Shown here: positions 36,410-41,955 of the stretch, in pieces | Layout: each line of letters opens with the position of its first letter | How positions within the stretch are numbered: the first letter of the stretch is position 1 | Assembly: GCA_018714845.1 (NCBI GenBank) | Contig: DVMR01000058.1 | Coordinates: forward strand, 1 to 64,000 | Length of the DNA: 64,000 nt | Direction: 5' to 3' | Source: Candidatus Ventrousia excrementavium | GTDB taxonomy: Bacteria > Bacillota > Clostridia > Oscillospirales > Butyricicoccaceae | Program-made: the position numbers and the translations under genes | Notes under the pieces: model-generated | The model's input: the letters and a program-made list of their open reading frames with translations, nothing else | Database searches by the model: none | What the model was told of the DNA's origin: nothing

Positions 36410-38488
36410 TTATTCGTCGTCATCTGCCGAGAACTTGGCTTCGGCAATGATCTTTTCCTGCACATTGGCCGGGACCTGCTCATACCGCTCAAACTTTGCG
36501 GTGAACGAGCCGCGGCCCTGCGTCATCGAGCGCAGCGAGATAGCGTAGTCGGCGATTTCGCTCTGCGGGACCTCAGCCTCGACGATCTGGGTGCCGTCTC
36601 CTTGCGGCTCCATACCCAGGATGCGGCCGCGGCGCTTGTTCATATCGCCCATGACGTCGCCGGTGTTGCTGTCAGGCACACAGATTTTCATCGAGCAGAC
36701 CGGCTCGAGAATAACCGGATTGGCCTGCGGAATGCCGGCCTTGTAGGCCAGGCGGGCCGCCATTTTAAAGGACAGCTCGTTAGAGTCGACATCATGGTAC
36801 TTGCCGTCCATCAGCGTAGCCTTGAGGCCGACCATCGGGTAACCGGCCAGAACGCCGTGCTCCATGGCCTCGCGGATGCCCTTTTCGACCGCGGGATGGA
36901 AGTTCTTCGGCACGCTGCCGCCGAAAATCTTTTCTTCAAAGACAAAGTCCTCGCCTTCGATGGGCTCAAAGTCCATCTTGACATTGCCGTACTGGCCATG
37001 TCCGCCCGACTGCTTTTTGTGGTTACCCTCGACCATCGAGACCTTTTTGCGGATGGTCTCGCGGTAAGCGACCTTCGGATTGCTCAGCTCAACCTCAACG
37101 CCGAACTTGCTCTTGAGCTTGGAGCACAGCACGTCGATATGAATGTCGCCGGCGCCCGAAATGACCATCTGCTTGGTCTCGGGGTTGTTGACGACAGTAA
37201 AGGTCGGGTCCTCGTCATGCAGGCGCGCCAGACCGGAAGCAATTTTTTCCTCGCCGCCCTTGACCTTGGGCGAAATGACCTGGCTGTAGCACGGCTCGGC
37301 AAACTCGATGCCCTTTAAGGTGATGCCAACCCCTGGCGCGCACAGCGTATCGCCTGTGCTGGTATCAGTCAGCTTGGAGACCGCGCCAATGTCGCCGCAG
37401 CCGACCTCCTTGACCTCATAATTCTTTTTGCCCTTGACAATATAGATATGACCCATCTTTTCGCTGGCACCGCTGCGGGTGTTCTGCAGCGTCATGTCAG
37501 ACGTTACCTTGCCCGAAATGACTTTAAAGAACGAGAAACGGCCATACTGGTCGGCAATGGTCTTAAAGACCAGAGCAATGGTCTTGCCATCGGGGTCATA
37601 CTTGACCTCGACCGGCTCGCCATCTTCATTGACGCCTTCTTCCACACGCACTTCGTTGGGCGCGGGTGCGAAGTCGATGATGGTCTCAAGCAGCTGCATG
37701 GTGCCAAAACCGGTCAGCGCCGAGCCGCAGACAACAGGTACGACATCGCCCTTCAAAACGCCCTGGCGCAAGCCCTGGCGCAGCTCTTCATCGGTAAAGC
37801 TCTCGCCGGCCAGGTATTTATCCAGCATCTCTTCCGACGTCTCGGCCACACTCTCAACCAGCGCATTGCGCAGCCGCTCAACTTTATCCTTTTTATTGTC
37901 AGGCAGCGGATGCTCGGTGATCTTATTTCCGTCAGCCTTGTACACCTTTTCAGTCAGCAGGTTGATAACGCCCTGGGCCTTGCCATTCTCATCGAACAGG
38001 GGAATGACAAAAGGTGTGGCCGCATTGCCGAAGGCCGCGCGCAGGCTTTCATATGCCTTGTCAAAATCAGCGTGCTCTTCGTCGACCTTGGAGATGTAAA
38101 AGAACGAGGGCAGTTTTTTCTTCTGCACGGCCTTCCATGCCTTTTCGGTGCCGACAGCGCAGCCGTTTTTGGCCGAAACAACAATAATGCCGCAGTCAGC
38201 GACGCGCAGCGCCTGCGCGACCTCGCCCTCGAAGTCAAAATAACCCGGAGTATCGATGACATTGACGATATGGCCCTTGTACTCGACAGGAGCCAGCGCC
38301 GTGGAAATGGAAATCTGGCGCTTGACCTCTTCGGGGTCAAAGTCGCAGACAGTGTTTCCGTCAGATACCTTGCCCAGGCGGTCGGTCCCGCCGGTCAAAA
38401 ACAGCAGGCTCTCCGCCAGCGAGGTCTTTCCGTCGCCACCGTGTCCCAGCAAGCAAACATTGCGGATTTTGTCAATGGGATATGCCAT
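36410..38488 (-). CDS. EF-G paralogue (EF-G-2/translation-factor GTPase family)
   Basis: A 692-residue five-domain GTPase with EF-G architecture. Its G motifs differ from housekeeping EF-G: G1 is GHGGDGKT (residues 15-22) instead of AHIDAGKT, and G4 is SKVD (133-136) instead of NKMD; G3 DTPGYFDF is conserved. Domain IV (VAYRETIRKKVSMVEGNHKKQSGGHGQYGNVKMD) is intact. This is the EF-G-2-like branch, whose role is poorly defined, so translocation should not be assumed. No str-operon genes are next to it. It has its own promoter. Confidence 0.9.
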   Translation of the reverse strand: MAYPIDKIRNVCLLGHGGDGKTSLAESLLFLTGGTDRLGKVSDGNTVCDFDPEEVKRQISISTALAPVEYKGHIVNVIDTPGYFDFEGEVAQALRVADCGIIVVSAKNGCAVGTEKAWKAVQKKKLPSFFYISKVDEEHADFDKAYESLRAAFGNAATPFVIPLFDENGKAQGVINLLTEKVYKADGNKITEHPLPDNKKDKVERLRNALVESVAETSEEMLDKYLAGESFTDEELRQGLRQGVLKGDVVPVVCGSALTGFGTMQLLETIIDFAPAPNEVRVEEGVNEDGEPVEVKYDPDGKTIALVFKTIADQYGRFSFFKVISGKVTSDMTLQNTRSGASEKMGHIYIVKGKKNYEVKEVGCGDIGAVSKLTDTSTGDTLCAPGVGITLKGIEFAEPCYSQVISPKVKGGEEKIASGLARLHDEDPTFTVVNNPETKQMVISGAGDIHIDVLCSKLKSKFGVEVELSNPKVAYRETIRKKVSMVEGNHKKQSGGHGQYGNVKMDFEPIEGEDFVFEEKIFGGSVPKNFHPAVEKGIREAMEHGVLAGYPMVGLKATLMDGKYHDVDSNELSFKMAARLAYKAGIPQANPVILEPVCSMKICVPDSNTGDVMGDMNKRRGRILGMEPQGDGTQIVEAEVPQSEIADYAISLRSMTQGRGSFTAKFERYEQVPANVQEKIIAEAKFSADDDE

Positions 38489-38613
38489 ATACGTCTCTCC
38501 TTCAAGGTAAAATATCGCCGCAGCCGCCGGGAACAGAACCACGCTCAGGCATGTACAGTCCCCCGCCCCGCGGCGTCAAACCGCAGTTACGGTTAAATAA
38601 CCACGTCTTAGTT

Positions 38614-38669: not shown

Positions 38670-40877
38670 TTAAAATTTCGTAATGAGCAGGCCGCAAAGC
38701 AACGCCGGGACCTCCCACAAAAGCAGAAAAAGCAGGACATTATAGGGTGTTGCGCTCGATGCCTTGAAGGATGCAACCAGAAAATACATGAAAAACAGTC
38801 CTATTGCCGCGCTGATCAAGCCGATGGCAATGCCCAGCTTTTCGGCGCGGCACTGCTGCCGCGCGCCGCCGGCTGCCTCGGCAAAGGCCATGGCCGAATC
38901 CCGGGACAAAAGGGCCAGCGGCTCTTCCCTTCGACCACATTCAGGCGCCGACAAGTCGATGCGGTCAGCCATATCAGGATAATCGGCTCCGCCCGAACGC
39001 AGCTCGAAACGTTTTTCAACCAGCGCCTGCGTCAGTCCGAAAAACACCGTTGCCAGCACCGGACGCAGCCGGCACCGCTGCAGTACGCGAAAAGTGGAAA
39101 AAGCCTGCGGCTGCACGGCGTATTTGACGGTAAACACCCCTGCGAACGCCGAGTCGATAGCCAGACACAGCCCGTCAGCCATCTTGCTGCTCAGGGAAAC
39201 ATGCACGCCCATCCGCAGCAAAAAGCTGGGAGTTCCCGCCAGCACATAATGACCGCCAACATTGGCCGACATTCCTCCTGTTTCAAAGAACCGAAAGTCG
39301 CTGGCCTGCTTGATGATGATGTACTGCTGCCGCGCAAAGTCGGAAAAAGCCTTGGCAACGCCGCTGCCGCAGGCCGAAAAGACCGCTGCCGCTGTGCCGA
39401 TAATGTCTTCCATACGCATGCTGTTTGACAGCTTCATACCTGTGATGGCGATACTGCCGGCCGGGAACAGGTCTCCGTCGCGCAGCACTGCCTCCCGGCA
39501 TCGCGACAGCCGCGCTGCACCGCGGCTGCCGAGCAGAGCCGCGCCCGAGGTAAACAGTTTTTTGGCTACGCGGCGCGCCGGTCCGGTTGACGCAAACAGC
39601 AGCGGCAATGGCACGCAGACCGACGACAAAGCGGCGAGTGCCCACAAAAAGAGCTGTCCCTGCCCCTGTCCAAAGGTTGCCACGCCAGCCAGTACCAGGC
39701 AGGCAATGATGACGATAGGCGCATACAGCGTCGATACCCGCTCGGTCCGGCTGGGGCCAGCCAGGCGTTCGACGTCCGGATAGGCTCCCTGCTGCGTCTT
39801 GACGGCAGCAAAGGTGCCATCAGGCATACGGATGCGCTTAACCGCCGTCGGGGCCGTCGCCACCTGACATATTTTGTACGCGCGCTTCAAAATATCCGCC
39901 CGCTGCCGCTTGGCCATGACGGCCAACAGGCAGACCAGAACCGAAACACAACAGTAGGGCAGATATCCGCCCCACTCGGGCACGGCAATGATCGACACCG
40001 CATGCGCCAGCGTACAAAGACAGCTGAACAGCACAGCGCTGTCCAGCGTCGGGCGAAACACGGCCAAACGGTACAGCCCTGCCCCCGTGACATCTGCCGC
40101 GAGCAGCATGGCGCAGACTTCGATGCCGCACAGCACCAGAATATAAAGAAACGGGCTCTGCGTATAGGTAAACCCGGGCGGCATGGGCAGCGCCAGCATG
40201 GACGCCAGCGTCATATAGACCGATACTGCCAAAAGGGGCAGCATAAATAAAATGCGCGCTGACAGCGAGGCCGTCTTTGCCGTGCAATAGGCCGCCCCCT
40301 GTCCGGCGTCGTCGAAGCTGGGGTTGGACAGGTCATACGGCCGATTGGGAGCAGTGTGAACGCCCTCCCCGTCCTCGTCCTCCGGCGGCAGCGTGTCGTC
40401 CTCAGGCTCGGCTTCCCAATCGGCCGGCGCCTGTGTGCGCCACGGCGCACGCGGCCGGCGGCGGGGTTTTTCCGGCTCCAGAGCGTCTTCTTCGCCATAT
40501 CCGGCTTCAGGAAACTCTAAAATCTTGGCTCGAGCCGCAGACCGCGCCTTTTCCGTTGCGCTTGCTTGCGGCTGTTCCGGCGGCTGATGCCGGGGCGGTT
40601 CGGTCCTTTCAACCACCGGTTCCTGCGGACGGGCCGGGGGCGGGGACGCCGGACGCAAACGCGGCGCCTGATCCTGTTCGTCTGCACTCCGGCCGGCCGC
40701 CTCTTCCGGCGCCGCGTGCCCAGGCTGCGGCGCAACTGACGCACGCGGTACCTCAGGCTCCGGACGGGCACGCCGGGGGACAGCCCCGTCTTCCGGCGCG
40801 GCCGTATCCGGCGGCGATGACAGCTTGCCGCTTTTAACCTCAGCTATGATTTCTTCAAGGGTATATTGCTCTTCCAA
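38670..40877 (-). CDS. Degenerate P-type ATPase-like membrane protein with a long proline-rich N-terminus
   Basis: 735 residues, not annotated by simple motif reading. Residues 1-205 are cytoplasmic, Pro/Glu/Arg-rich and probably disordered. Eight membrane segments follow in 4+2+2 order (about 209-230, 242-261, 279-299, 303-321, 383-403, 409-430, 681-702, 712-732), the P1B-ATPase layout. RPTLDSAV matches the usual PNMDTL before TM3; CVPLPLLFASTGP matches CPCALGLATP. Residues 463-473 (AVLRDGDLFPA) sit where DKTGTLT should be. The N-domain-like part (SGVAKAF, FFETGGMSANVGGHYVLAGTP, AIDSAFAGVFTV) is recognisable. The TGES actuator loop, phosphorylated Asp, TGD and GDGxND are all missing. It follows rlmB by 32 nt. 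Function is unknown; I infer a non-catalytic, possibly scaffolding or sensing role. Confidence 0.6.
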   Translation of the reverse strand: MEEQYTLEEIIAEVKSGKLSSPPDTAAPEDGAVPRRARPEPEVPRASVAPQPGHAAPEEAAGRSADEQDQAPRLRPASPPPARPQEPVVERTEPPRHQPPEQPQASATEKARSAARAKILEFPEAGYGEEDALEPEKPRRRPRAPWRTQAPADWEAEPEDDTLPPEDEDGEGVHTAPNRPYDLSNPSFDDAGQGAAYCTAKTASLSARILFMLPLLAVSVYMTLASMLALPMPPGFTYTQSPFLYILVLCGIEVCAMLLAADVTGAGLYRLAVFRPTLDSAVLFSCLCTLAHAVSIIAVPEWGGYLPYCCVSVLVCLLAVMAKRQRADILKRAYKICQVATAPTAVKRIRMPDGTFAAVKTQQGAYPDVERLAGPSRTERVSTLYAPIVIIACLVLAGVATFGQGQGQLFLWALAALSSVCVPLPLLFASTGPARRVAKKLFTSGAALLGSRGAARLSRCREAVLRDGDLFPAGSIAITGMKLSNSMRMEDIIGTAAAVFSACGSGVAKAFSDFARQQYIIIKQASDFRFFETGGMSANVGGHYVLAGTPSFLLRMGVHVSLSSKMADGLCLAIDSAFAGVFTVKYAVQPQAFSTFRVLQRCRLRPVLATVFFGLTQALVEKRFELRSGGADYPDMADRIDLSAPECGRREEPLALLSRDSAMAFAEAAGGARQQCRAEKLGIAIGLISAAIGLFFMYFLVASFKASSATPYNVLLFLLLWEVPALLCGLLITKF

Positions 40878-40909: not shown

Positions 40910-41737
40910 TTACCTGACACCACGCTGCCGCACTGTCTCGAACAGCAGCACAGCTGCCGCGTTCGACGCATTGAGTGAGGGGATGTGCCCATGCTGCGGG
41001 ATGCTGACGACGGCGTCACACCCCTCGCGCACCAGCCGTGAAAGCCCCGCGCCCTCGGACCCAATAACAATGCCGGCCGGCACCGTCAAGTCGGTCTCAT
41101 AGAGGCTGACGCCCGCCATATCAGCGGCAAACAGAAATAACCCGTTTTCTTTGAGCTCTGCCATGGCCGCAGGCAGATTGCTGACCCGTGCGACCGGCAA
41201 ATGCTCAAGCGCGCCGGCCGCAGCCTTTGCGCAGGCCCCGTTGAGCCCGGCGCTGCGCCGGCGGGGGATGACGACGCCGTGTGCCCCGGCCACCTCAGCT
41301 GAACGGATGATGGCGCCGAGATTGTGCGGGTCAGTGATTCCATCGCACAGGATAACAAGCGGTGTCTCCCCTTTGTTTTTCGCCAGTGCCAAAATGTCTG
41401 CAATCGAAGCGTACTGCGCCGCCGCAGCGACGGCGATAATGCCCTGGTGTGCGCCCGTGGCGCTCATGCGGTCCAGCTTGCGGCGGTCACATTCCTGTAC
41501 CGGCACTCCCTGCTTTCGCGCACGGTCGATGATGCGCCCTACCGATGATGCCGACCCGCTGGCGAAAAACAGCTTATCCAGCTGACGCCCGGCGTTCAGC
41601 GCCTCCCAGACGGCATTTTTTCCTTCAAGCAAATCCTCGCGCTCTGCCGTATCCTTTTCATAGCGCTCGTTTGCGGCATAAACCGACCCATGATGCACAC
41701 GCCCGGACGGACGCGAATTCTTTTTCTTCTGTTCCAC
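40910..41737 (-). CDS. rlmB: 23S rRNA (guanosine-2'-O-)-methyltransferase RlmB-like (SpoU family)
   Basis: A 275-residue SPOUT methyltransferase. A basic N-terminus precedes the substrate-binding domain (LLEGKNAVWEALNAGRQLDKLFF), then the trefoil-knot domain with CDGITDPHNLGAIIRSAEVAGAHGVVIP, IVIGSEGAGLSRLVREGCD and SIPQHGHIPSLNASNAAAVLLFE. These are the three SpoU motifs. The start is GTG 41737 with AGGAGTGA upstream; the frame is open for 33 codons more without a better site. Confidence 0.9.
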   Translation of the reverse strand: MEQKKKNSRPSGRVHHGSVYAANERYEKDTAEREDLLEGKNAVWEALNAGRQLDKLFFASGSASSVGRIIDRARKQGVPVQECDRRKLDRMSATGAHQGIIAVAAAAQYASIADILALAKNKGETPLVILCDGITDPHNLGAIIRSAEVAGAHGVVIPRRRSAGLNGACAKAAAGALEHLPVARVSNLPAAMAELKENGLFLFAADMAGVSLYETDLTVPAGIVIGSEGAGLSRLVREGCDAVVSIPQHGHIPSLNASNAAAVLLFETVRQRGVR

Positions 41738-41955
41738 CTGATCACTCCTGACCGCCGCGGCATACCGGGGCGAATACACAGCGACAACCACTCGGTGTCT
41801 GTCGAGTGTTTTCAGTATATCACATTCGCAAGTCATTTGGAATAGAAAAAACGACCACTTTCGACCAGCTTATACCTTGTGCTTTCGCACGCTACACCGG
41901 GTACGAGGGCATATCGCTTACAGATTGTCATCATTTTCGCAGAGTAAATGGTCTA

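Follow-up and report, generated by a model that had tools for sequence, protein, structure and literature searches.

A phosphorylated aspartate defines the P-type ATPases. The P1B metal pumps among them, such as CopA and ZntA, are the closest described relatives of the protein analysed here, which shares with them (including Legionella CopA, LpCopA; 3rfu and 4bbj) the eight-helix topology, the domain order, the N-domain fold, the (A/R)P-x-x-D-S segment, the M4 proline and sequence homology. Unlike these pumps, it lacks DKTGT, TGES, GDGxND, the CPC cysteines and the SEHP histidine, its A domain is reduced to one hairpin, its P domain is shortened, and a long Pro/Glu/Arg-rich N terminus stands in place of the metal-binding domains. 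A degenerate P4-ATPase domain occurs in the apicomplexan guanylate cyclase PfGC-beta (PMC6592433); that domain is of the eukaryotic P4 type and is fused to a cyclase, whereas the protein described here is a stand-alone bacterial P1B descendant that is near-universal in its order. It resembles pseudokinases and other pseudoenzymes (PMC7586955) in that catalytic residues were lost, the fold was kept and a new use is presumed, and differs from pseudokinases in its fold. Our search of the open-licence literature turned up no account of a pseudo-P-type ATPase in bacteria.

Similarity of the window protein to P1B-type metal pumps

The window, i.e., the whole stretch of 64,000 nucleotides of Candidatus Ventrousia excrementavium DNA that was analysed, contains a gene of 735 codons (38670..40877, minus strand) with a TTG start and a GGAGG sequence approximately 8 nt upstream. 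The open reading frame proposed in the original prediction is therefore real, with the correction that it lies on the minus strand. With the window protein as a single-sequence query, no significant match was obtained in Pfam and nothing useful in the PDB, and NCBIfam gave weak matches only, far below the curated cut-offs (ZntA, E 9e-6 over residues 379-600). Since the single-sequence Pfam and PDB searches were uninformative, a profile was needed. A profile of 55 relatives matched LpCopA with an E-value of 8.6e-31 and also matched other P1B pumps, and 38 of the 55 relatives matched TIGR01525 (heavy-metal P-type ATPase). The region homologous to P1B metal-pump ATPases comprises residues 195-735, and an AlphaFold2 model of this region, built with 48 homologues, had a mean pLDDT of 90.7 and a pTM of 0.85. 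Foldseek searches with the model returned P1B ATPases as the best matches (4bbj, LpCopA, E 1.7e-17), and VIA-align against 3rfu gave a Z of 24.0 over 490 residues; the overall rmsd of 8.8 A is expected, as the domains move. When compared on its own, the N-domain of the model matched the CopA N-domain (2voy_J) with an rmsd of 1.9 A. The P-type ATPase similarity that had been proposed from an alignment by eye, and that the original prediction staked itself on, was thus found in both profile and structure searches. As judged from significant profile homology, the eight-helix topology and the P- and N-domain folds of the model, the pseudo-ATPase family descends from P1B-type metal pumps.

The phosphorylation site is both lost and rebuilt

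Motifs were counted in 86 homologues in one MAFFT alignment, which was checked against a PDB profile alignment. DKTGT was present in none of the 86 by pattern search or alignment, and the pattern search for GDGxND was equally negative in all 86. As predicted, AVLRDGDLFPA at residues 463-473 of the window protein occupies the place of DKTGT (VLRDGDLFPAGS, 39453..39488, minus strand), and across the family the site reads [T/R/S]-D-x-D-[L/I]-F-P. The nucleophile column holds Asp in 8/86 homologues, and the position after it (D467) in 72/86; D469, at the +3 position, is Asp in 70/86 and Glu in 12, with F or Y and then P two positions on. The D-x-D pair is thus approximately 81-84% conserved. In each of the two alignments it sits one residue away from the nucleophile column, and a strand ends just before D467 in the AlphaFold2 model. 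Two members from one family of the order (L097 and L098) retain the nucleophile Asp itself but not KTGT (VMLDAQDLFP), which may represent a stage part-way through the motif change.

The TGD site (39039..39053, minus strand) reads ATVFF in the window protein, with TVF at the TGD position, and ATRDF is the family type. The Asp of TGD (D612) is kept in 74/86 relatives (86%), having been lost only in the window's own genus and lineage and in a few others. The proposal that every catalytic motif had been lost therefore stands for DKTGT, TGES and GDGxND and for the TGD of the window protein, but not family-wide for the TGD Asp, and the usual retention of this residue indicates that loss was accompanied by rebuilding of the site. 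The Mg-binding motif GDGxND is indeed absent, as originally claimed, although by deletion of a segment of approximately 32 residues rather than by mutation: from TGD to the last helices the family has a median length of 49 residues, compared to 81-85 in three full-length pumps. The stretch that follows the deleted segment starts with LLSRDS (38895..38912, minus strand); the initial alignment left GDGxND unplaced, and in the PDB profile alignment LLSRDG aligns with the stretch after GDGxND. Y586 is 93% conserved at a position occupied by Asp in true pumps. An active pump would be expected to show DKTGT, TGES in a full A domain, GDGxND, TGD, CPC and SEHP/GN, and the window protein has none of these.

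The conserved acidic residues may indicate that the D-x-D-L-F-P loop and the TGD Asp together form a new phosphatase, phosphotransferase or metal site, i.e., a rewired HAD enzyme, since D-x-D resembles HAD motif I and the residues and the strand lie as described above. We consider this unlikely. The motif III region has no conserved lysine (the best K/R columns between residues 613 and 658 reach 59% and 44%), the acidic residues of motif IV are missing with the deleted GDGxND segment, the Asp sits one residue off the nucleophile column, and D612 has been lost in the window's own genus.

The membrane part, A domain and N-domain

The 4+2+2 plan of eight hydrophobic helices is present. The first four helices (P1B MA, MB, M1 and M2; 39909..40256, minus strand) include the predicted RPTLDSAV segment before the third. 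They are followed by an A-domain remnant (39747..39875, minus strand), which is a single beta hairpin in the AlphaFold2 model and from which the TGES segment has been deleted. The distance from R329 to P423 is 94 in the window protein and 164-179 in true pumps; in the family this stretch has 91-126 residues (median 96), as against 164-179 in four true pumps, TGES having been lost together with approximately 78 A-domain residues. The pattern TGE[SAP] is absent from the window protein and occurs in 2/86 homologues only, once near the C terminus and once in the N-domain, neither being the A-domain motif. In the next two helices (M3 and M4; 39585..39728, minus strand), the CPC site reads VPL after C421, so that the proline of this site is kept and both cysteine positions are changed. 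The entry-site YFE and the TM6 motifs have also been replaced. The last two helices (M5 and M6; 38679..38831, minus strand) carry the family-specific W721, which is 91% conserved, and P724, both new near-invariant residues of the last helix.

The nucleotide-domain-like stretch noted in the original prediction corresponds to an N-domain (39111..39452, minus strand), which has kept its length (143 residues, compared to 142-152 in true pumps) as well as G535 and G548. SEHP reads CGSG in the window protein, with S505 at the histidine site and T549 at the site of the GN asparagine. In the SEHP histidine column of the family, the six most frequent residues account for 84/86, and histidine is not one of them.

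Retention of all eight helices under constraint, along with the newly conserved W721 and P724, could indicate that the membrane path of the pump persists in a passive channel or a secondary transporter, its energy coupling having been lost. However, the CPC cysteines that bind ions are gone, as is the entry-site YFE, and the N-domain keeps both its length and its constraint, although a channel has no obvious need of one. A channel or transporter appears about as improbable as the HAD enzyme considered above.

Conserved gene neighbourhood

Directly upstream of the pseudo-ATPase gene, on the same strand, lies rlmB (40910..41836, minus strand), which encodes a SpoU-family rRNA methyltransferase (Pfam SpoU methylase, E 2.3e-40) and is a neighbour kept in relatives. 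The downstream neighbour encodes an EF-G-like protein (36410..38542, minus strand) and is conserved mainly in nearer relatives. In 79 loci of the sampled relatives, the pseudo-ATPase gene is preceded by a gene from the rlmB cluster that runs in the same direction, and a SpoU-type motif was detected upstream in 75 of the 80 loci with enough flanking sequence. Synteny with rlmB, the neighbour to which the original prediction had drawn attention, thus holds in most sampled loci.

The same genome contains intact P-type ATPases (L088 and L089), and the protein could regulate an intact P1B pump in the same cell, as the dead subunit of a heteromer. We regard this as improbable, more so than the enzyme or the channel, since the conserved neighbours are rlmB and the EF-G-like gene and synteny with a pump gene was not seen. 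To our knowledge, P1B pumps generally act without such a subunit.

Distribution, selection and phylogeny

The first profile was too diverse for the contig scan, for which a tighter one was used; as the tighter profile favours sequences with DxDL[FY]P, the motif counts were made without it. In the genome scans, presence was scored as a profile match with E <= 1e-45. A homologue was present in 137/147 genomes of the order (Oscillospirales, by named records) and in 113/118 of the good genomes, with named records including Butyricicoccus, Intestinibacillus, Oscillibacter, Faecousia and Oscillospiraceae. Matches fell in a single place in all matched genomes but one, in which the gene is split across two contigs. 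In a class sample of 245 genomes, the nine from the order all matched with E < 1e-75, and the best match outside the order (L100, E 6.6e-55), the only outside one to reach the E <= 1e-45 level, was an intact pump with all motifs. In a phylum sample of 149 genomes, two belonged to the order, and no others matched at E <= 1e-45.

Two good genomes of one genus (G357 and G421, genus g211) had no match, and a real loss is possible there. Several distant orthologues (matches in G430, G393, G355, G369, G368 and G404), four of which come from one family of the order, have a single in-frame stop codon (TGA, TAA or TAG) inside a match that is otherwise full-length, or a little beyond it.

When the 86 family members were placed in a FastTree phylogeny together with 10 true pumps, they grouped as a single clade with a support of 0.94, at the end of a long branch. 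The motif loss is old, and a new conserved signature arose afterwards. The orthologue search did not show the window copy to be one decayed gene among relatives with intact DKTGT, the outcome that the original prediction had set against itself; the loss is conserved in all 86 homologues examined. The dN/dS of the core was 0.08-0.24 against four relatives, and that of the N-terminal arm 0.31-0.33. Considering the window copy without catalytic motifs as a decaying pump, or a frameshift or annotation artefact, was rejected on dN/dS and distribution, and we give it almost no credence, since almost every copy in the order has an intact frame, dN/dS is well below 1, all relatives lack the motifs, and the residues that replaced them are conserved.

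The N-terminal arm

Residues 1-194 (40296..40877, minus strand) form a Pro/Ala/Glu/Arg-rich extension (P 18%, E 14%, R 9%) which, by its composition, is probably disordered. A Pro/Glu/Arg-rich tail of about 200 residues had been predicted and does exist, at the N terminus and not at the C terminus. The arm contains a short motif, YTLEEIIAEVKS (40830..40865, minus strand), of the family type F/Y-x-L-D/E-D/E-I-I/L-A-E. A short, helical motif of the type F/Y-S-L-D/E-D/E-I-I/L-A-E lies near the start of most family members; members of approximately 553 residues have neither the arm nor the motif. When a 20-residue motif profile was run against 30 genomes, the family gene was the best match in most of them and there were few other credible matches, so that the motif is nearly family-specific. 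The matches outside the family were mostly internal and in unrelated proteins. The exceptions, which made the most sense among these matches, lay at the N termini of single-pass proteins of the VanW family, in two genera and more weakly in a third.

These VanW-family proteins of related genera (L201, L202 and L204, with L203 weaker) start with FSVDDILNEY or ISVDDILNEY. Proteins L201, L202 and L204 are similar to the pseudo-ATPase in having the motif followed by a Pro/Ala-rich linker, and differ from it in their unrelated membrane and outside domains. The frame adjoining L180, the same gene as L201, resembles FtsW/RodA by eye. In L056, L057, L059 and L061, the N-terminal arms extend over approximately 700-900 residues and contain acidic runs of Asp/Glu as well as repeats, for example EPEVQADEEPETQILEPE.

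Discussion

The presence of new conserved residues in a broken site points to a new role rather than decay. Repurposing, as originally suggested, fits the order-wide and almost always single-copy occurrence, the rlmB synteny, the purifying selection and the new conserved motif. We are confident, on the basis of sequence and model, that the protein is a membrane pseudoenzyme derived from a P1B-type metal pump. The motifs for phosphorylation, dephosphorylation and ion binding have been lost, and by the established P-type cycle phosphorylation-driven pumping would not be possible.

What such a pseudoenzyme does can be proposed more tentatively. The eight-helix membrane part, the N-domain and a shortened P-domain have been retained, the phosphorylation cycle and metal pumping should have disappeared, and the protein may work at the cytoplasmic membrane as a non-pumping scaffold or sensor, a role that we infer and to which we give less than an even chance. 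The head formed by the N- and P-domains could bind a ligand or partner through the [T/R/S]-D-x-D-[L/I]-F-P loop, and the long N-terminal arm could recruit a cytosolic partner through its FSLEDIIAE-type helix. Recruitment through the motif cannot be universal, since the motif is missing in members of approximately 553 residues. Such recruitment might serve cell-envelope assembly, a link that we regard as doubtful. If the envelope link is left aside, the pseudoenzyme and its scaffold or sensor role, taken as one statement, seem to us about as likely to be right as wrong. Against this reading, the conserved loop with its acidic residues might in principle still have a catalytic function, and neighbours such as rlmB and the EF-G-like gene do not suggest work at the membrane. 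A bolder proposal, which is speculative and which we think rather unlikely, is that the cycle was lost in the ancestor of the order, that the acidic loop, in the old active site, and a partner-recruiting N-terminal arm were gained, and that the result is a near-universal, possibly essential membrane hub or ligand sensor with its own chemistry.

Given that the window protein has no significant Pfam match and only weak NCBIfam matches, genes of this kind will probably be labelled as hypothetical in annotations. The gene is almost always single-copy, syntenic and confined to the order, and is thus directly testable in a cultured member, for example Intestinibacillus or Butyricicoccus. A stand-alone bacterial branch that dropped the aspartate while its fold stayed under strong selection, and that runs through an entire order of common gut bacteria, would give a clear example from nature of a pump converted into something else, and the protein probably does a membrane job different from pumping.
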